Below, one piece after another: positions 37,192 through 56,112 of a stretch of 64,000 nt of DNA (position 1 is the first letter of the stretch; each line of letters starts with the position of its first letter). The stretch lies in contig NZ_CP015438.1 in NCBI RefSeq assembly GCF_001634285.1, positions 791,501 to 855,500 on the forward strand. The letters run 5' to 3'. Source of the stretch: Anoxybacillus amylolyticus. GTDB taxonomy: Bacteria; Bacillota; Bacilli; Bacillales; Anoxybacillaceae. The position numbers and the translations under genes are program-made. The notes under the pieces are model-generated. The model was not told the DNA's origin, ran no database searches, and saw only the letters and a list, made by a program, of their open reading frames with translations.

Positions 37192-37461
37192 ATGAATGAG
37201 TTGTTGCATTGCATTGAAAAATATCTCAACGGTAAATTATCGGCGGAACAATTTTCTTATGAATTTCCTTCCATATACCTATTTTATGTTTATGAGGGGA
37301 ACATTGATGAGCAGTATGTCGATGCACTTGATGATATTTCTGAAGCTTGTGGTTGGTACGAACCGAATCCACTGCATAGGCAAGATGACGATGGCTACAT
37401 TGGGGAGGAAGAACTAAGAAAAATTGTTTTGGAGAAGTATAAATTGTTAAAAAGCACATAA
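37192..37461 (+). CDS. Colicin-immunity-like small protein
   Basis: An 89-residue acidic protein. Its pattern (MNELLHCIEKYLNGKLSAEQ, a central acidic stretch, then EEELRKIVLEKYKLL) resembles the bacterial self-protective colicin-immunity family, which neutralises a toxin by direct binding. No toxin gene is adjacent, so it is an orphan immunity gene or has another role. The ATG follows GAGGAGGGGGTAAAG, 5 bases after rlmD ends, so it is probably co-transcribed with rlmD. It opens the accessory island. Confidence 0.65.
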   Translation: MNELLHCIEKYLNGKLSAEQFSYEFPSIYLFYVYEGNIDEQYVDALDDISEACGWYEPNPLHRQDDDGYIGEEELRKIVLEKYKLLKST

Positions 37462-37485
37462 CCGAACATGGTTACGTGCTTTTTA
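37449..37485. terminator. Bidirectional terminator in the small-gene cluster
   Basis: The stem AAAAGCAC plus TAACC pairs with GGTTA plus GTGCTTTT, interrupted by one mismatch. It separates the convergent immunity-like and LSM-like genes. Confidence 0.8.
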
Positions 37486-37677
37486 AATGGAGTGAATTTG
37501 TTTAATCTCATCTTCTCCAACAGCAATCATATTTCCTCCATCTGGAGTAAATATTATTTCATCATAATCGAAATCTGTATCTTCTTGATCAATATAGTCA
37601 TGAACAAACCCTTCTAACACTGTTCCATCGTTAAACACAATTTGCACTCTTTTTTGAACGTATTTCCATAACCCCAT
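37483..37677 (-). CDS. LSM-like small protein, paralogue 1
   Basis: A 64-residue acidic beta-rich protein beginning MGLWKYVQKRVQIVFNDGTV and containing LEGFVHDYIDQEDTDFDYDE. The order (K.V.I.F.DG..LEGFV.DY.D.ED) is shared with the 76-residue protein at 37893-38123, so the two are paralogues. The pattern resembles an Sm/LSM-like fold. GGAGG lies 5 bases before the ATG. It is the last gene of a three-gene minus-strand group. The function is unknown; similar small proteins occur as immunity proteins in toxin loci. Confidence 0.7.
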   Translation of the reverse strand: MGLWKYVQKRVQIVFNDGTVLEGFVHDYIDQEDTDFDYDEIIFTPDGGNMIAVGEDEIKQIHSI

Positions 37678-37716: not shown

Positions 37717-37896
37717 TTAATCATTTTTCCGACATTTATACGTAATTTCAACAATTTCATCGGTTGTGACATAAAACATATCATCAAAGTCATCTGCGCG
37801 TTGGCAAAAATATTTTGGTTCAGTCGGAAATACTTCTAAAACAGTAGCTTCTGTTCCGTCTTTTAGCCGTATGACATCCAATTCTTCCACAATCAT
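37717..37896 (-). CDS. DUF4926-like small protein (59 aa)
   Basis: A 59-residue protein beginning MIVEELDVIRLKDGTEATVL and ending IVEITYKCRKND. The opening ELDVIRLKDGTEATVLEV resembles DUF4926, a family found in toxin-immunity and transposon neighbourhoods. Its ATG overlaps the stop of the upstream LSM-like gene (ATGA), so translation is coupled. The function is unknown. It is shorter than the usual gene-calling cutoff but has no competing frame. Confidence 0.65.
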   Translation of the reverse strand: MIVEELDVIRLKDGTEATVLEVFPTEPKYFCQRADDFDDMFYVTTDEIVEITYKCRKND

Positions 37897-38123
37897 TTGT
37901 CTCTCCCTCGCTTTTCGTTAAGAATTGTAATCGATTTTATTTCTGTTTCCAGTACGCCAAAAACATAGCCTTTTCCTTTTGTTTCTTTGTTTGTAATTAT
38001 TAAGCTATCTATTCCATCCTCACTATCCTCTCCGTCGCAGTAATCGCGAACAAACCCTTCTAGCACATCTCCGTCTTTATATACAATTCGTACGTTTTTC
38101 CCAACATATTCCCATAATTTCAT
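37893..38123 (-). CDS. LSM-like small protein, paralogue 2
   Basis: A 76-residue protein beginning MKLWEYVGKNVRIVYKDGDV with LEGFVRDYCDGEDSEDGID, parallel to the 64-residue protein at 37483-37677. Paralogue 2 has a longer C-terminus (about KSITILNEKRGRDK). RBS GGAGGGCTGGC precedes the ATG. It leads a group of three genes (LSM-like, DUF4926-like, LSM-like) ending in a terminator. A SLOG-domain gene lies 32 bases upstream on the same strand and could share the transcript. Confidence 0.7.
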   Translation of the reverse strand: MKLWEYVGKNVRIVYKDGDVLEGFVRDYCDGEDSEDGIDSLIITNKETKGKGYVFGVLETEIKSITILNEKRGRDK

Positions 38124-38155: not shown

Positions 38156-38683
38156 TTAAAACAGCTTTAATTGCTCTGAATTGTGCATCAGTTCATGAAG
38201 ATTAGCGACAGCCGATTCACTTCCGACATTTACCATTGTTTTGATATCATCCACATCTTTAATCGTATAAAATTGTTTAGCAGGGATAAAGTATACTAAT
38301 ACTTTTTTGTTTAATTTGGTAAGATTGATGATGTTATTCAATGTTCCTTTACTTTGTCCGTTCCAAATCATAAAACCGTAGTCTGCATTTTTTGCCATCT
38401 CTATATCTTTGGCTGCGTAATAATCAAATCCTTTTTTGTGTGGTTCAACCTCCACCTTTTCTACTTCCCATTGCCCAATATTATTTCTTGCCTTTCCATT
38501 TGTTGCATAAACTTTAACATTTCGATAATTCAACGAATGTAAAAACTTTTGAACTTGTTTATCTACTCCATTCGCATCCCCGACCAAAACAGTGAAATTG
38601 TTGTTTATAATGTTGAACAACCTTTCTTTTACTTGTTTATTCAAAATGGAGACTGCTCGCGGACCAGCGACAAATACCTTCAT
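38156..38683 (-). CDS. SLOG-domain (DUF2493/YspA-like) nucleotide-binding protein
   Basis: A 175-residue Rossmann-like protein. KVFVAGPRAVSILNK at the start and FTVLVGDANGVDKQVQKFL (about residues 31-49) match the SLOG superfamily (DUF2493/YspA branch), with a second conserved region ADYGFMIWNGQSKGTLNNI that fits the ligand-binding loop. SLOG proteins are predicted to sense or process nucleotide-derived ligands and occur in conflict systems. It starts 6 bases after the phosphoribosyltransferase gene ends, so the two form a unit. Catalysis is not shown. Confidence 0.75.
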   Translation of the reverse strand: MKVFVAGPRAVSILNKQVKERLFNIINNNFTVLVGDANGVDKQVQKFLHSLNYRNVKVYATNGKARNNIGQWEVEKVEVEPHKKGFDYYAAKDIEMAKNADYGFMIWNGQSKGTLNNIINLTKLNKKVLVYFIPAKQFYTIKDVDDIKTMVNVGSESAVANLHELMHNSEQLKLF

Positions 38684-38689
38684 TTCAAT

Positions 38690-39328
38690 TCACCTTCTTG
38701 TTTTTGTTATTGTAAGGACGTATACATTTTTAACATTCTCATCTGTTTTTAACACTCTCACAGTTTCATGCAATGTTGCCCCACTTGAGTATAAGTCGTC
38801 TACAACTAATATATTGACCAATTTTAAAAATCTTTTTTTTCGCACAATCGAACCTGATATTTCTGATTTATCAAATTTATTTAGATTTTTTGCTTGTGCA
38901 GTATTTGTTTTTTCTAATATGTCATTATATGAAGGTACACGTAAATAGTCTGCAATCTGTTTACTTAGTTCAAAAACAGGTTGAAATGTTCTGTTACGAT
39001 TAGATGGAGGAACAGGGAGGACTACATCTACTTCCTTTACGGCATCCCAACGGGAAATAAATTGTGTGATCAGGCTCATTATTTCTGCTAACTTCTCCCT
39101 ATCTTGATTATACTTAAATTGATACAATAACTCACCTAAATAACTTCTAGTTGTTTGAAAACGATTGTGTCCCCATTCATCAATACCGATGAACTCGCTC
39201 GCAATTGAATGATAATCTAAGGCATATCCTTCTTTCCAAATACCAATCAATCGAATAGGGTTGATTTTGTGCAACAAGGTTCCCTCCCACTTTCTCGCTT
39301 TGCATATTTCTTCGACAATAGCTATCAA
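38690..39328 (-). CDS. ComF-like phosphoribosyltransferase-family protein
   Basis: A 212-residue protein whose C-terminal half is a type I phosphoribosyltransferase domain: LPVPPSNRNRTFQPV (substrate side) and the PRPP loop ILVVDDLYSSGATLHE (about residues 172-187). The N-terminal part is unlike ComF, having no zinc cysteines. The start is TTG behind ACAAGGAA. It is divergent from hsdM and immediately upstream of the SLOG gene. A role in processing a nucleotide or PRPP-derived compound together with SLOG is inferred. Confidence 0.75.
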   Translation of the reverse strand: MIAIVEEICKARKWEGTLLHKINPIRLIGIWKEGYALDYHSIASEFIGIDEWGHNRFQTTRSYLGELLYQFKYNQDREKLAEIMSLITQFISRWDAVKEVDVVLPVPPSNRNRTFQPVFELSKQIADYLRVPSYNDILEKTNTAQAKNLNKFDKSEISGSIVRKKRFLKLVNILVVDDLYSSGATLHETVRVLKTDENVKNVYVLTITKTRR

Positions 39329-39449
39329 ATTCCTTGTATATTATTGTAAAAATATGCAAAATAAAATCGGAATTTTGCCTAGCGCTGTGGAAAAGCGCAA
39401 AAATCCAATGGGGTAATCATTTATTTTATGAAAAATGATCACTTTTTGT

Positions 39450-39506: not shown

Positions 39507-40964
39507 ATGCTTACAGGTGAATTACGCAATAAAGTCGATAAAATATGGGAAACGTTTTGGACGGGAGGGATTACTAATCCGCTAACCGTCATTGAACAGT
39601 TTACCTATTTGTTGTTTATTAAAGGTCTTGATGAAGCAGAAACGTATCGTGAACAAGAAGCTGTTTTATTAGGAATTGATTTTGAACGAATGTTTCCAGA
39701 AGATAAACAACATCTTCGTTGGAGCAAATTTAAAAACTTAGAAGCGTCGCAAATGTACGACATTGTATCAAACGAAGTGTTCCCGTTTATTAAAAGTTTG
39801 CATGGCAATAAAAATTCAGCATACGCCAAATATATGAGCGATGCGATTTTTATGATTCCAACTCCGCAAATGCTTTCCAAAATCGTCGATGGCATTGATA
39901 ACATTCCAATGAAAGACCGCGATACGAAAGGGGATTTATACGAATATTTGCTGTCAAAAATTGCGACAGCGGGAACGAACGGTCAATTTCGTACGCCACG
40001 TCATATTATTAACATGATGGTCGAACTCATGAAACCAACACCGGAAGATATTATCGTCGATCCGGCGGCCGGTTCTGCAGGTTTCTTAGTAGCGGCAGGA
40101 GAATATTTGCGTAAACATCGCAACGACTTATTTCTCGTACAAGGCTTAAAGGAACATTTTAATAATCATATGTTCCACGGATTTGATATGGACCGTACAA
40201 TGTTGCGTATCGGGGCAATGAACATGATGCTGCATGGTATTGAAAACCCGAATATTGAGTATCGCGATTCGTTGTCTGAACAAAACAAAGATAAAGACAA
40301 ATACACCCTTGTCCTTGCCAATCCGCCTTTTAAAGGTTCATTAGATTATGATGCAGTTTCAAATGATTTGTTAAAAGTTGTAAAGACAAAGAAAACCGAG
40401 CTTTTATTTTTGGCGTTATTTTTACGCATTTTAAAAACGGGCGGGCGTTGCGCCTGCATCGTACCAGACGGGGTGCTGTTCGGAAGCTCAACCGCACATA
40501 AAGCAATTCGTAAAGAAATCGTCGAAAACCATAAACTTGAAGCAATTATTTCGATGCCAAGCGGCGTGTTTAAACCGTACGCCGGTGTTTCGACAGCGAT
40601 TATGATTTTTACGAAAACAGGCGTTGGTGGGACAGACAACGTTTGGTTTTACGATATGAAAGCCGATGACTACTCATTGGACGACAAGCGCAATCCGGTA
40701 GAAGAAAACGACATTCCAGACATTATCGAGCGCTTCCATAACCGTGAAGCGGAAAAGGAACGAAAACGGACAGAGCAATCGTTTTTCGTGCCGGTGGAAG
40801 AAATTCGTGAAAACGACTATGACTTATCGATTAACAAGTACAAAGAGATTGAGTATGAAGAAGTCGAGTACGAACCACCGACCGTCATCTTAGAACGAGT
40901 TGAAATGTTGGAGAAAGATATTGTGCAAGGATTGAAAGAGTTGAAAGAAATGATTAGAGGGTAG
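39507..40964 (+). CDS. hsdM: Type I restriction-modification DNA methyltransferase subunit (HsdM)
   Basis: A 485-residue N6-adenine methyltransferase subunit. The N-terminal HsdM domain (about residues 5-130) precedes the SAM-binding motif IVDPAAGSAGFLVAAGEY and the catalytic LANPPFKG (NPPF). It works as M2S1 with HsdS to methylate the recognition site and as part of R2M2S1 for restriction. ATG 39507 has AAAAAGGAGG before it; the frame from 39483 is less likely. hsdS and hsdR follow on the same strand. Motifs are intact, but the specificity subunit is broken, so target binding should be lost. Confidence 0.95.
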   Translation: MLTGELRNKVDKIWETFWTGGITNPLTVIEQFTYLLFIKGLDEAETYREQEAVLLGIDFERMFPEDKQHLRWSKFKNLEASQMYDIVSNEVFPFIKSLHGNKNSAYAKYMSDAIFMIPTPQMLSKIVDGIDNIPMKDRDTKGDLYEYLLSKIATAGTNGQFRTPRHIINMMVELMKPTPEDIIVDPAAGSAGFLVAAGEYLRKHRNDLFLVQGLKEHFNNHMFHGFDMDRTMLRIGAMNMMLHGIENPNIEYRDSLSEQNKDKDKYTLVLANPPFKGSLDYDAVSNDLLKVVKTKKTELLFLALFLRILKTGGRCACIVPDGVLFGSSTAHKAIRKEIVENHKLEAIISMPSGVFKPYAGVSTAIMIFTKTGVGGTDNVWFYDMKADDYSLDDKRNPVEENDIPDIIERFHNREAEKERKRTEQSFFVPVEEIRENDYDLSINKYKEIEYEEVEYEPPTVILERVEMLEKDIVQGLKELKEMIRG

Positions 40965-41630
40965 TGAAATTTTATGTCTTTTAGATATGTAAAACTAGGT
41001 AGTTTATTTAATATTACATCTGGTGGTACTCCTTCTAGGAAAAATAAGGATTACTATGAAAATGGAGATATTCCTTGGGTGAAAACAGGGGATTTAAAGA
41101 ATATGTATTTATCTGATGTGGATGAGTATATAACTCAACAAGCGCTGAACGAATCCTCAGCTAAACTGTTTCCAAAAGGTACTGTACTTATTGCGATGTA
41201 TGGTGCTACCATAGGAAATTGCTCAATACTCTCAATAGATGCGGCTACTAATCAGGCTTGTGCAGCATTTAAACCTAACAATAAAATTATTCCAGAATTT
41301 TTATACTATTATCTAATGAGTATTAAAGAAAGACTAATTTCATTGGCAGTTGGTGGTGCTCAACCTAACATTTCTATTAGTATCCTTAAGAATATTGAAA
41401 TCCCTTTATTAACAATAAATGAACAAAAACGAATGGTTTCGATTTTGAATAAGTCTAGGGAATTAATCGACAAACGAAAAGCCCAAATTGAAGCGTTAGA
41501 CGAGTTAACGCAAAGTGTGTTTTTGGAGATGTTTGGGGATTTAAAATCTAACCCAAAAGGTTGGAAAAAGGTTCAACTCTCTGAGTTAGTTCAAGTCGAT
41601 GCTAATTTAGTTAGTGATATCGAAAATTAT

Positions 41631-42965
41631 GGTTCATCACCAAAAGATGTACTTGCCCCTGCCATTAAAGTATGTTAGCTGTTTCTAACCGAACCCGCAA
41701 TGCAAAACGTTGGATATTTCTGTATCCGTATCCTCGACGTTTAATCAGCTTGATCTTGTTATTCGTTCCCTCCATTTTCCCATTCGAATAAGGCGATAAA
41801 ATGCACGATATGATTTCGTCTGTTCGTTTGACGAGTGATTTTGCGATGGCACGCACAACCGAACAAGGACAAAACGAATACCGATGAATCCAAGCCTCCA
41901 AACGTCGTTTCGCCTGTTGCACGTCTTTGCTTTTGGACACATAGCGAAAATGTTGGAGCGATTGGTAGACAGACTTTAAGTAATCGCTTTCATTACACCA
42001 TTCTCGTACAATTTGACGTTCTTCCTCTATAAGCTTCTCTGGACATTGGCTCAATAAACGACAAACGTAACGAACATTTCCATGTTTCTTGCCTCCTTTG
42101 TCTAAATATTTGCGACAACGCTCTAAAGCATCTGTAAACAGCTGAATGACATGGAAATAATCGACCACATGTGTCGCCTCTGGGCAAATCCCTTGAATCG
42201 CTTTTTTCATCGCTGGAGCCAAATCGCTCACGACATACTGAACAGAACCAGACACATGAGCCAACGCACGTCCAATGGCTTCCTCGTTCTTTCCTGCTTC
42301 AATGGCATACACTTCTCCCGTTTCGGCATCCATGATCGTCACTCCGTAGTCATGCCCTTTTCGAAAAGCAAACTCATCGACACAAACCGCCTTTGGTTGG
42401 ATTTCATTCGATAGGAAGGAAGGGGCATGAGTATAAAACCAACGTTCAACGGTCGTGTAAGGAAGCTTGAGCATACGAGCCACTGCCTGAATGGATGTTC
42501 CGATGCAAGATTGCGCGACCCATTGCTGAAAAGCATCCGTCGCCACACTTCGAGGAGCGATGGCTGGATAAGACGTGCTGAATGTCATGCCACACGTACC
42601 ACAACGTCTGCGCTCTACAGGAAGTTCAATCCAAAAAATTCCGATTCGCTGAGCATAGCCATGCATCCATTGCTTCTTTTTGCATGTCATTTTGATCGTG
42701 CGCTTCAAGCAGACAGGACATAACGGGCATTGTTCGGGCAGAGAAAGTTCGAAAATCCAACGTTCTTCTTCTTTTCGTACCTTTTGAATCAAAACATCTG
42801 GTAAATCGATGAGTTCTTTGATAAACTGAGAGTACATGCGAATTTTCCTCCAATGGTTTGGTTTGGTCACCTTTACCATACAGGAAAATTCGCATTTTTT
42901 GTACCCTCTATTTTCTCTATGCACACCTATCTTAAATGATCAAGTACAACTTGTGGTGAAGAGCC
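41631..42965 (-). mobile_element. ISL3-family insertion sequence, copy 2
   Basis: A 1335-bp element identical in structure to copy 1 at 18746-20080, with the same inverted repeat ends, flanked by the 8-bp duplication AAAATTAT (41623-41630 and 42966-42973). Base 42339 is T where copy 1 has C at the corresponding 19454. Both copies lie in the same orientation, and each has its own target duplication, so they are independent insertions. Confidence 0.96.
41665..42837 (-). CDS. ISL3-family transposase, copy 2
   Basis: A 390-residue DDE transposase equal to copy 1 except for Thr instead of Ala in HDYGVTIMD. The zinc-ribbon cysteines, the helix-turn-helix and all three acidic residues are present. 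ATG 42837 follows TTGGAGGA; the longer frame to 42924 lacks a good ribosome site. It is read opposite to the host gene hsdS. Confidence 0.95.
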   Translation of the reverse strand: MYSQFIKELIDLPDVLIQKVRKEEERWIFELSLPEQCPLCPVCLKRTIKMTCKKKQWMHGYAQRIGIFWIELPVERRRCGTCGMTFSTSYPAIAPRSVATDAFQQWVAQSCIGTSIQAVARMLKLPYTTVERWFYTHAPSFLSNEIQPKAVCVDEFAFRKGHDYGVTIMDAETGEVYAIEAGKNEEAIGRALAHVSGSVQYVVSDLAPAMKKAIQGICPEATHVVDYFHVIQLFTDALERCRKYLDKGGKKHGNVRYVCRLLSQCPEKLIEEERQIVREWCNESDYLKSVYQSLQHFRYVSKSKDVQQAKRRLEAWIHRYSFCPCSVVRAIAKSLVKRTDEIISCILSPYSNGKMEGTNNKIKLIKRRGYGYRNIQRFALRVRLETANIL

Positions 42966-43509
42966 AAAATTATGCTGATTACCCTTTAATTGGAATAGAT
43001 AACATTGAAAAGAATACAGGAAATATTATTAATATAAAAACTGTAAGAGAGTGTGATATCAAAGGAAGCAAGTACTACTTTAATAGTGATCATATTATTT
43101 ATAGTAAAATCCGACCTTACTTGAATAAGGTAGCTTCCCCATCTTTTGAAGGACTATGTAGTACGGATGCCTATCCTTTGAAGATTAATAAAGAAAAAAC
43201 CAACAAGCAATTCATATTGAGTATATTGCGTTCAAAATACTTCGTTAATTATGCTATAAGGCAGAGTAAGGGAGCTAATATACCAAGGATAGATCAAAAA
43301 CAACTTTTGGATTACAAAACCATATTGCCAGACTTAAAGTTGCAAGATGAATTTGAGTATATAGTCGAACAAATAGATGCTCAAAAAGAAATCATGAGAA
43401 ATAGCTTAAAGGAGCTAGAGCACAACTTCCACTCCCTCATGCAACGGGCGTTTATGGGAGAGTTGTTCAACGATTAGTAAATTCGTGCTTGTCAAGGGAG
43501 GGGTATTTG

Positions 43510-46896: not shown

Positions 46897-47131
46897 AAAA
46901 ACCTAAATGTCTTTCTAACGCCTCAATATCATCAGCATCAGTCAATATACTTAAAGCCCAATGATAAGGCGACTCGTGAAAGCCCATTGGGTCTTTCGCT
47001 AACGACCGAACAACATCTGACTTTTGAATAAGCTCTTTTGCTTCTGTTTCGCTTTTTCCAAATTCTTTTATCAGTTCACGTATAATGTGTTGAACCATTA
47101 TTTCGATGTCTTTTTGAATGATCATAGACAT
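46895..47131 (-). CDS. Small partner protein of the DUF3990 gene (possible antitoxin)
   Basis: A 78-residue mostly helical protein, MSMIIQKDIEIMVQHIIREL at the start and LAKDPMGFHESPYHWALSIL in the middle. It overlaps the DUF3990 gene by 10 bases and its ribosome site (CGGAGGTGA) lies within that gene, so the two are translationally coupled. DUF3990 genes often have a small DUF3791-type partner; similarity here is only in size, order and general pattern. An antitoxin role is inferred. No DNA-binding motif is seen. Confidence 0.6.
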   Translation of the reverse strand: MSMIIQKDIEIMVQHIIRELIKEFGKSETEAKELIQKSDVVRSLAKDPMGFHESPYHWALSILTDADDIEALERHLGF

Positions 47132-47676
47132 GTAATCACCTCCGAAATGTTTAAGAGCTGTATAGCCGTATTTGTGAGCACGGCTAGCTGATCTTTATCC
47201 TTATAAGCACGTATACTTTTATAATCTGCTGATTGTAACCCACCGTCCGCCACTAGCCCATAAATCCAATCATAGTCGCATGAAGAAAAAGAGTGATTTA
47301 CTTGTCTCATTCTCCATACAAAATGTTGCCATTGTTCATTCTCTTGATCGAAAATACGGTGTTTTAAATTTAACCAGTTATTTGCATTTTTAATCTTTAT
47401 TTTAAGTACAACAGGTTGAAAATCTTTTTTCATTCCAAGGAAATCCCTAATAGTAATTCCTTCTTTTTCAAGAGCATGCGGAATAGGAATAGGTCTTTCC
47501 TTTCTGCGCATTGCCCATTCTCGAGCTTGATTAAATTGAGTGGTTACATAAAAACCAGAACCGAAGTCTGTTCCCCCCTTACCTCTACGGTATATTTGAA
47601 TTCCATGTTTAACAATGATATCTGCATATAAACTAATTGTTCCGTGGTATAATGGTGAACAAGGATCATAATACAT
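47122..47676 (-). CDS. DUF3990 (ADP-ribosyltransferase-like) protein, possible toxin
   Basis: A 184-residue protein of the DUF3990 type: SPLYHGTISLYADII at the N-terminus, the block GGTDFGSGFYVTTQFNQAREW (about residues 34-54) and CDYDWIYGLVADGG in the second half. The YHGT and DFGSGFY motifs are consistent with the ADP-ribosyltransferase fold (NAD-binding H and Y). This family is predicted to modify a host target and frequently sits in conflict islands with a small neighbour. The upstream ribosome site is weak. It is transcribed before its partner gene, an order seen in some toxin-antitoxin pairs. Confidence 0.7.
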   Translation of the reverse strand: MYYDPCSPLYHGTISLYADIIVKHGIQIYRRGKGGTDFGSGFYVTTQFNQAREWAMRRKERPIPIPHALEKEGITIRDFLGMKKDFQPVVLKIKIKNANNWLNLKHRIFDQENEQWQHFVWRMRQVNHSFSSCDYDWIYGLVADGGLQSADYKSIRAYKDKDQLAVLTNTAIQLLNISEVITCL

Positions 47677-55002: not shown

Positions 55003-56112
55003 TTAGGCTATCGCTAATCGTTTCATGCCCTCATGTTTGATATTGATTGCCGCATTGACGTCCCTGTCGCTCTCGAATCCACATTCACAGCGGAATGTAC
55101 GCTCAGAAAGCGATAAAGATTCCTTTACTTGACCGCAACATGAACAAGTTTTAGATGACGGAAACCACTTATCTATTTTGATAAGCTTTTTCCCTTGCTC
55201 CTCTAACTTGTATTGGAGAAATGTCGTGAACATCCCCCAGCCGTTGTCATGAACGCTCTTGCCGAAATTCAGAACTTGCGACATCCCTTTCATGTTGAGG
55301 TCTTCGATGACCACGCAATCATAAAGTTTCGCTAATTCGTATGATTTTTTGTGTAGAAAGTCTTTTCGTTGGTTCGCTATTTTCTCATGTAGCTTCGCTA
55401 CTTTCAAACGCTGTTTGTGCCAACGATTAGAACCCTTCTTTCGGCGTGATAATATCCGTTGTTCTTTCGCTAATTTTTCCAATGCTTGCCGATAGAAACG
55501 AGGATAATTGGCTCTCTTACCCTCGCTATCGACATACAGCGTATTCATGGAAAAATCAAGCCCAACAACCGTTTGTATTTCTTTGGGGACAGGTTGATGT
55601 TCGTATTCGGTGAGAATAGAAACATAGTATTTTCCTGTTTTTGTTTTCGTGATCGTACAAGCCTTGATGATATGGTGGGCAGGAATCTCCCGATGTTGCT
55701 TGAACTTGACCCATTTCAGTTTGGGTAACTTGATATAGCCATCTGAAAGTTGAATATTGCCATTGACCACATTTGTGGTGTACGACTGTTTCGCCTTGCG
55801 GTTTTTGAACTTTGGAAATCCAGCACGACCCGAAAAGAAATTTTGAAACGCTTTCTGCAAATTCAATTGGGCGTTTGCTAACGCAAGGCTATCCACTTCT
55901 TTAAGCCAAGGAAACTCCTTTTTGTACTTGGCAGGGGTCGGAAATGTTTGTTTTTTCAAAGCTTCTTTGTCGTCTTTGAACTTTTCATAAATTTGTATGC
56001 GTTCTTCAAGCATTTTGTTATAAACGAAACGGACACAACCGAAGGTTTTGGCAAGCAGCTGTTCTTGTTCTTTTGTTGGGTACAGACGGAATTTATATGA
56101 TTTGTTTACCAT
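55003..56112 (-). CDS. tnpB: IS605-family RNA-guided nuclease TnpB
   Basis: A 369-residue TnpB of the OrfB/IS891-IS1136 type. The N-terminal helix-turn-helix part starts MVNKSYKFRLYPTKEQEQLL. The RuvC residues are all present: VVGLDFSMNTL (D), VIEDLNMKGMS (E) and ESDRDVNAAINI (D). The zinc finger is CSCCGQ...CECG. TnpB binds an RNA from the right end of its element (omega/reRNA) and cuts DNA next to a short motif. The RNA would come from the 3' end of the gene and the right end (about 55010-54889), with the guide just beyond. The start is 12 bases after the tnpA stop. No lesion was seen. Confidence 0.92.
   Translation of the reverse strand: MVNKSYKFRLYPTKEQEQLLAKTFGCVRFVYNKMLEERIQIYEKFKDDKEALKKQTFPTPAKYKKEFPWLKEVDSLALANAQLNLQKAFQNFFSGRAGFPKFKNRKAKQSYTTNVVNGNIQLSDGYIKLPKLKWVKFKQHREIPAHHIIKACTITKTKTGKYYVSILTEYEHQPVPKEIQTVVGLDFSMNTLYVDSEGKRANYPRFYRQALEKLAKEQRILSRRKKGSNRWHKQRLKVAKLHEKIANQRKDFLHKKSYELAKLYDCVVIEDLNMKGMSQVLNFGKSVHDNGWGMFTTFLQYKLEEQGKKLIKIDKWFPSSKTCSCCGQVKESLSLSERTFRCECGFESDRDVNAAINIKHEGMKRLAIA

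Follow-up and report, generated by a model that had tools for sequence, protein, structure and literature searches.

Two small neighbouring genes of Anoxybacillus amylolyticus (NZ_CP015438.1), coding for a phosphoribosyltransferase (PRTase) and a minimal SLOG protein, probably form a compact type II-like toxin-antitoxin module resembling ShosTA and PsyrTA, in which the PRTase would be the toxin and the SLOG protein the antitoxin. They are located in a stretch of 64,000 nucleotides that was analysed as a whole and is called the window below (Table 1). The layout is that of type II toxin-antitoxin systems, that is, two small co-oriented genes with tight spacing, carried by mobile elements, and the pair is best filed, as far as its sequences tell, as a compact variant of the PRTase-SLOG/DprA toxin-antitoxin systems. 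The original prediction was a nucleotide-signalling defence or regulatory unit. Its two-gene character is borne out, as the PRTase-SLOG order and the tight spacing recur across several phyla, but the signalling part is not: the toxin-antitoxin logic fits better, because the PRTase is homologous to PRTases of the toxin type, some SLOG proteins are fused to antitoxin helix-turn-helix (HTH) domains, plasmid-maintenance genes are found among the neighbours, and there are loci where the PRTase is lost and the SLOG gene is kept.

Table 1. Features of the window, and groups of loci in which the two genes, or one of them, were found
Feature	Position or loci	Strand	Remarks
PRTase, proposed toxin	38690..39274	-	194 aa from TTG 39274 (or 195 aa from 39277)
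Minimal SLOG protein, proposed antitoxin	38156..38683	-	175 aa
Leader inverted repeat 5' of the PRTase start	39299..39360	-	possible operator or hairpin, weak
hsdM, divergent from the PRTase-SLOG pair	39507-40964		N6_Mtase E 1e-70, HsdM_N E 9e-16
hsdS split by an ISL3-family transposase gene	40974-41678, 41665-42924, 42836-43477	+, -, +	DDE_Tnp_ISL3 E 6e-53
DUF3990 protein, downstream of hsdR	47122-47676	-	DUF3990 E 5e-14, weak PARP match E 0.001
Small genes (three) following the SLOG gene	37483-37677, 37717-37896, 37893-38123	-	
89 aa protein	37192-37461	+	sub-threshold PF09204 E 0.03
Presumed TnpB/IS605 OrfB-like protein	55003-56112	-	
Broken PRTase with intact SLOG	G002, G003, G028, G329, G353, G402, L119, L123, L124		
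Intact pair, 17 plasmids	L041-L044, L051-L058, L062, L064, L065, L120, L121		
Broken PRTase, SLOG broken or not found, plasmids	L066, L122, L125		
SLOG relatives with no PRTase found	plasmids L059, L060, L061, L063; IMG/VR L089, L091		
Intact pairs, Bacillota sample	window genome, L114, L118		
Intact SLOG with PRTase remnants, one genus of the Bacillota sample	L115, L116, L117		remnants seen by eye (L115, L116) or by profile (L117)
Two consecutive PRTases in an E. coli element	L187:5992-8600		

Both reading frames are open at the positions originally given, on the minus strand, with 6 nt between the PRTase stop, which ends at 38690, and the SLOG ATG at 38683, and the pair is divergent from hsdM. 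The PRTase frame (38690-39328) opens at 39328; a ribosome-type site, GGAGGG, directly precedes the TTG codons at 39277 and 39274. Since this site is kept together with the start in all three close relatives having the PRTase gene, and the homologues begin at about the equivalent point, translation most likely starts at one of these two codons, giving 194-195 aa instead of 212, and the start assigned previously was 51-54 nt too long. Among relatives both genes are under purifying selection: for the PRTase, dN/dS was 0.05-0.11 in five of six comparisons and 0.35 in one with a dS of only 0.025, and for the SLOG gene 21 comparisons, which take in the orphan copies, gave 0.00-0.22. In the stretch of the pair there were no promoter signals beyond chance (7 sites versus 8.5 expected) and no terminator was found. 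The leader repeat (22-nt arms, 82% complementary, 18 nt apart) was considered as a conserved operator or hairpin and is a weak candidate; a similar fold is seen in one relative (G032), and the fold differs in two others (G006, G021).

The PRPP loop of the PRTase is intact (VVDDLYSSGAT), as predicted, and the invariant positions of the PRTase alignment include D177, D178 and G183. Its matches are spread over several families: Pribosyltran in Pfam (E 7e-4, below the cut-off), comF in NCBIfam (E 4e-12, far below the cut-off) and, in PADLOC, PsyrT (E 5e-14, profile positions 538-685 of 689 only), the lower-scoring ShosT (E 1e-6, 26.7 bits, 134 of 212 residues) and the retron PRTase_III-A (best E 8e-7). 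A sequence search of the PDB gave only short matches (OPRT 4fym, E 5e-4). By profile comparison, ComFC was the nearest PRTase family (99%, E 4e-20), and PsyrT also matched (96%, E 3e-9).

The relation to ComF was addressed by a tree of 62 proteins, comprising 34 paired PRTases, 26 ComFC-type proteins and two PsyrT domains. The paired PRTases formed one group with support 88/84 (not a starred branch, and with the bootstrap not fully settled), and the ComFC-type proteins were separate with support 98/98. The N-terminal zinc cysteines (CxxC) are present in all 26 ComFC-type proteins versus none of the 34 paired PRTases, and the shortened window protein contains no cysteine at all. The lack of the ComF zinc cysteines, noted originally, extends to all 34 paired PRTases, and the predicted distinctness from competence ComF agrees both with the tree and with the fetched regions, where no competence setting was seen; the reading as a competence ComFC gene was rejected because of the absent zinc cysteines. 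The strict PRPP-loop pattern is kept in 33 of the 34 paired PRTases, the exception (L080) retaining DD and TG and differing at one inner position. The residues of the loop and of the SLOG motif are kept in the relatives; their loss in most homologues would have counted against the original prediction.

The partner protein is harder to place. In Pfam, its only SLOG-type match is DprA at E 0.12, below the cut-off, and there was no match to PF10686 up to E 1, so that the earlier label 'DUF2493-like' had to be dropped and membership in the DUF2493 or YAcAr SLOG families was rejected. With PADLOC nothing was found for the window protein, neither PsyrA nor, up to E 10, ShosA. Its Listeria relative does match weakly, to DprA (E 1e-4), ShosA (E 0.003, over 44 residues), PsyrA (E 0.005) and a SLOG-cluster model (E 0.04). 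These matches, together with the motif GDAxGxD, which is invariant along with AKD and SxGTxxN in an alignment of 14 SLOG sequences, make SLOG a fair superfamily label for the partner. Profile comparison yielded no confident placement (PsyrA 18%, DprA 9%, YpsA 2%, with the ComFC negative control at 1%), and the PDB search one match at chance level (E 0.64). In phosphoribohydrolases of the LOG type, a catalytic Glu follows GxGT. Here this position is an invariant Asn (SxGTxxN), both in the 14-row alignment and in another of 26 rows, which sets the family apart from LOG enzymes.

Seven of the 46 profiled SLOG proteins are extended by 105-115 aa at the C-terminus. All four long proteins scanned carry HTH domains of the antitoxin type, of two kinds: the addiction-module antidote TIGR02684 (E 3e-26 and 1e-23; loci L043 and L051) and HTH_37 (E 5e-19 and 2e-19; loci L052 and L057). 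No HTH was found in the window protein.

The two genes are tightly linked. In the 46 profiled pairs (41 unique) the PRTase comes first and the SLOG gene second, and the spacing, taken from the model ends, is -4 to +11 nt. The distance matrices of the two proteins are correlated at 0.87 (none of 2000 shuffles was as high), as expected for co-inherited genes. Loss, on the other hand, is one-sided: where a damaged gene has left traces in the fetched loci, it is the PRTase in nine cases and the SLOG gene in one. This count is small, the events are partly related, and six SLOG loci without PRTase traces were left out; the nine loci with a broken PRTase represent perhaps six or seven independent events. 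In the sole reverse case, the first copy of the E. coli locus L187, an intact PRTase is accompanied by a decayed SLOG gene, and a second, intact PRTase-SLOG pair follows directly. The two PRTase genes of that element are consecutive; an intact SLOG-HTH protein accompanies the second, and an ABC-three-component system lies beside them. The bias towards loss of the PRTase is what a toxin with its antitoxin would give and fits such a pair, though it is no proof. SLOG relatives found without a PRTase on four plasmids and two IMG/VR contigs indicate that the SLOG protein can have other work. The four plasmids are from Mesorhizobium, Shinella, Planktothrix and Sphingobium, two of the loci lying near DUF736 genes, and their SLOG proteins possibly act in anti-addiction or belong to a different system.

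Among 150 related genomes, the host included, the PRTase is present at an identity of at least 95% in four and the SLOG gene in seven. A further 82 genomes have only weak PRTase matches (E 9e-12 or worse), and the 26 of these that were fetched all have a CxxC near the N-terminus, as in ComFC. At three of the seven SLOG loci (G002, G003 and G028) the leader and an intact SLOG gene are present and the body of the PRTase is missing; the junction is common to G002 and G003 and different in G028. In a sample of 398 Bacillota genomes, six had a SLOG match, three with an intact pair and three, belonging to a single genus, where the SLOG gene is intact and the PRTase survives only as remnants; in two of the latter (L115, L116) the former place of the PRTase, just upstream of the kept SLOG gene, is occupied by what we take to be a DinD-like gene.

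The search of 72,556 plasmids gave PRTase matches in 66 records and SLOG matches in 98, of which 60 each were listed. The 27 plasmid regions fetched comprise 17 with an intact pair, four in which a SLOG gene but no PRTase was found, and two sets of three with broken genes. In IMG/VR there were 26 SLOG and 21 PRTase loci, all 21 PRTase contigs being within the SLOG list, although the alignments used as queries derive from paired loci and so favour the recovery of pairs. By profile, a PRTase is located just upstream in 23 of these 26 SLOG loci, one of which (L070) matches only over the second half of the PRTase; another locus (L078) is cut by the contig end. No SLOG match was found in 50,697 phage records, and PRTase matches there were weak and limited to five. 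A query with an E. coli pair matched 85 of 5,426 E. coli genomes; among the matches listed (30 of the 85), 20 fall only within the SLOG part, and the pair was intact in all three regions fetched. In sum, the hosts of the pair are plasmids, phages or prophages, an integrative conjugative element (ICE) and chromosomes.

The plasmid pairs have neighbours concerned with maintenance, namely rep genes (L041, L054, L055), parA or parB (L052, L054, L058, L065), resolvase-type recombinases (L043, L044, L052, L053, L062, L065) and other toxin-antitoxin genes (L051, L054, L062), and there are also restriction-modification, CBASS or SIR2 genes (L044, L051, L053, L057). In E. coli, one pair (L188) is situated between P2-type portal and replication genes, at the gpA-gpQ site of a P2 prophage, one (L189) in a prophage that also has ogr and tail genes, and one (L187) in an element carrying genes for conjugation. 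Of ten large open reading frames flanking the IMG/VR loci, a PHROGs scan matched four to phage hallmark families (a tail sheath, two portals and a P2-type origin-nicking protein) and a fifth to ParB, the other five being uninformative. A housekeeping context, which would have counted against the original prediction, was not seen in this survey: the pairs were on plasmids, prophages and an ICE and not in housekeeping operons. No third gene that might serve as a target recurs in the fetched neighbourhoods.

The association with the type I system, suggested by the window, did not recur in the annotated regions from elsewhere. No type I restriction-modification gene is named in 19 annotated intact-pair regions with flanks of 3-8 kb (16 plasmids and three E. 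coli chromosomes, the 17th plasmid, L042, having no annotation), and in the window hsdS itself is split. A functional tie was rejected on these grounds, and the type I neighbour is incidental. Due to the split of hsdS, the type I system of the window may lack a working S subunit. Downstream of hsdR there is a gene for an ADP-ribosyltransferase-like DUF3990 protein, possibly another conflict gene. The three small genes downstream of SLOG, for which no confident family match was found, are also present beside SLOG-only relatives, and two of them are alike (MKLWEYVGKNVRIV/MGLWKYVQKRVQIV). The 89 aa protein next to them has a sub-threshold colicin-immunity match and EF-hand-like matches, and a more distant protein, presumably of the TnpB type, shows a zinc finger pattern at its C-terminus.

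Several known systems resemble the pair. In PsyrTA and RqlHI the C-terminal toxin domain is related to our PRTase, and in two Bacillota loci of PsyrTA the toxin gene is likewise first and a gene of the SLOG superfamily second, the two overlapping. According to PMC4670107, RqlH needs, in order to be toxic, the PRPP pocket in its PRTase domain, a pocket kept in the window PRTase; RqlI, with its DprA-like region, binds and restrains RqlH; and the PRTase domain by itself caused no toxicity. In contrast to our pair, these toxins are fused to a RecQ-like helicase, which the 194 aa PRTase lacks, and their antitoxin is of the DprA type, whereas the partner here is a protein of about 175 aa. ShosTA likewise has a PRTase that stands alone, with a size close to that of ours, next to a gene of the SLOG superfamily, but its antitoxin ShosA is again of the DprA type and not a minimal SLOG protein. 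Because of these differences in the partner and the helicase, the pair was not filed as a member of ShosTA or PsyrTA. When 199 Bacillota genomes were searched for ShosT, 30 genomes were among the matches listed, and all 15 matches fetched score higher as ComFC. PMC9122126 describes the P2 gpA-gpQ region as a defence hotspot, where a DprA-PRTase pair protects against T7 and lambda; the present family uses the same site. Type III retrons also have matching PRTase effectors, but no reverse transcriptase is found among the window reading frames beside the pair.

The original prediction held that the pair may be undescribed. No study on the function of a PRTase paired with a minimal SLOG protein was found in the literature searched, most subscription journals and bioRxiv being outside its scope. 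On the other hand, PRTase-DprA systems are published (PMC4670107, PMC9122126), and the pair was probably seen before, in view of three brief mentions: PMC6459960 (2019) describes a YpsA-family branch that forms a strongly coupled gene pair with a PRTase domain, and gives the branch no function; PMC5512222 likens the solo PRTases of mobile elements to ComFC; and a 2026 legend on newly cloned defence systems (PMC13092281) lists a PRTase domain that may or may not be from the present pair. Like the present pair, that of the YpsA branch joins a SLOG protein with a PRTase domain; it may or may not be of the same family, the YpsA profile score being low. In the fetched records the PRTase is mostly annotated as 'ComF family protein' and the partner as 'hypothetical', and hence plasmid and prophage copies are easily overlooked; some 'ComF' genes of mobile elements may be this module.

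If the pair is a toxin-antitoxin module, the PRTase, which keeps the PRPP loop, lacks the zinc part and is akin to ComFC, PsyrT and ShosT, would be a toxin that uses PRPP on a presumed acceptor, and the SLOG protein would bind it and keep it inactive, as suggested by the gene order and linkage, by the HTH fusions and by the one-sided loss. The PRTase could be freed in either of two ways: when the SLOG protein is lost with the plasmid or prophage, or when it binds a nucleotide or DNA ligand arising in infection or DNA stress. The freed PRTase would then arrest or kill the cell. Such a module would serve the maintenance of mobile elements and probably abortive defence against rival phages, and the window copy would be one that has settled on the chromosome beside a type I system.

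The same two proteins could instead act in nucleotide signalling or modification with no toxin involved, the PRTase making a product that the SLOG protein senses or processes, with an effect on gene expression or on the fate of incoming DNA. We consider this unlikely. The kept PRPP loop and ligand-type SLOG motif would suit it, and a ligand-sensing regulator, too, would need the DNA-binding HTH seen in some SLOG proteins; moreover, a proposal in PMC5512222 has mobile-element PRTases take part in nucleotide production or sensing at DNA entry. However, a SLOG protein serving only the product of the PRTase would not be expected to outlive it in nine loci, the HTH types are antitoxin families, and no recurrent target gene accompanies the pair in the fetched neighbourhoods. 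Far less probable still is a competence or other housekeeping function of the ComF type, or the role of an accessory to the type I system: the comF match (far below its cut-off), the closeness to ComFC profiles and the divergent hsdM are outweighed by the zinc cysteines missing from all 34 paired PRTases, by the scarcity of both genes (4 and 7 of 150 related genomes), by the lack of a type I gene in any of the 19 annotated regions, and by the host itself, whose genome contains, at other places, a DprA-type gene and a further weak match of the ComFC type.

Returning to the toxin-antitoxin module, one may also ask whether it represents, in its smallest form, a broad family of PRTase-SLOG immunity systems, spread from Bacillota to Proteobacteria on plasmids and P2-like phages, where a toxin using PRPP is gated directly by a nucleotide-sensing antitoxin of one domain. 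One may further ask whether chromosomal SLOG proteins whose PRTase was lost, like those of three window relatives, are anti-addiction or anti-prophage shields against incoming copies. This extension is tentative, and we would at present rather doubt than assert it. PRTases recur as toxins or effectors, in RqlHI, ShosTA and some retrons, and the pair may help cells to resist viruses or to keep plasmids. If the proposed roles are true, a PRTase of 194 aa with a partner of 175 aa would be small enough to lend itself to biochemical work, and it could reveal how such enzymes use PRPP and how they are controlled by a SLOG fold.
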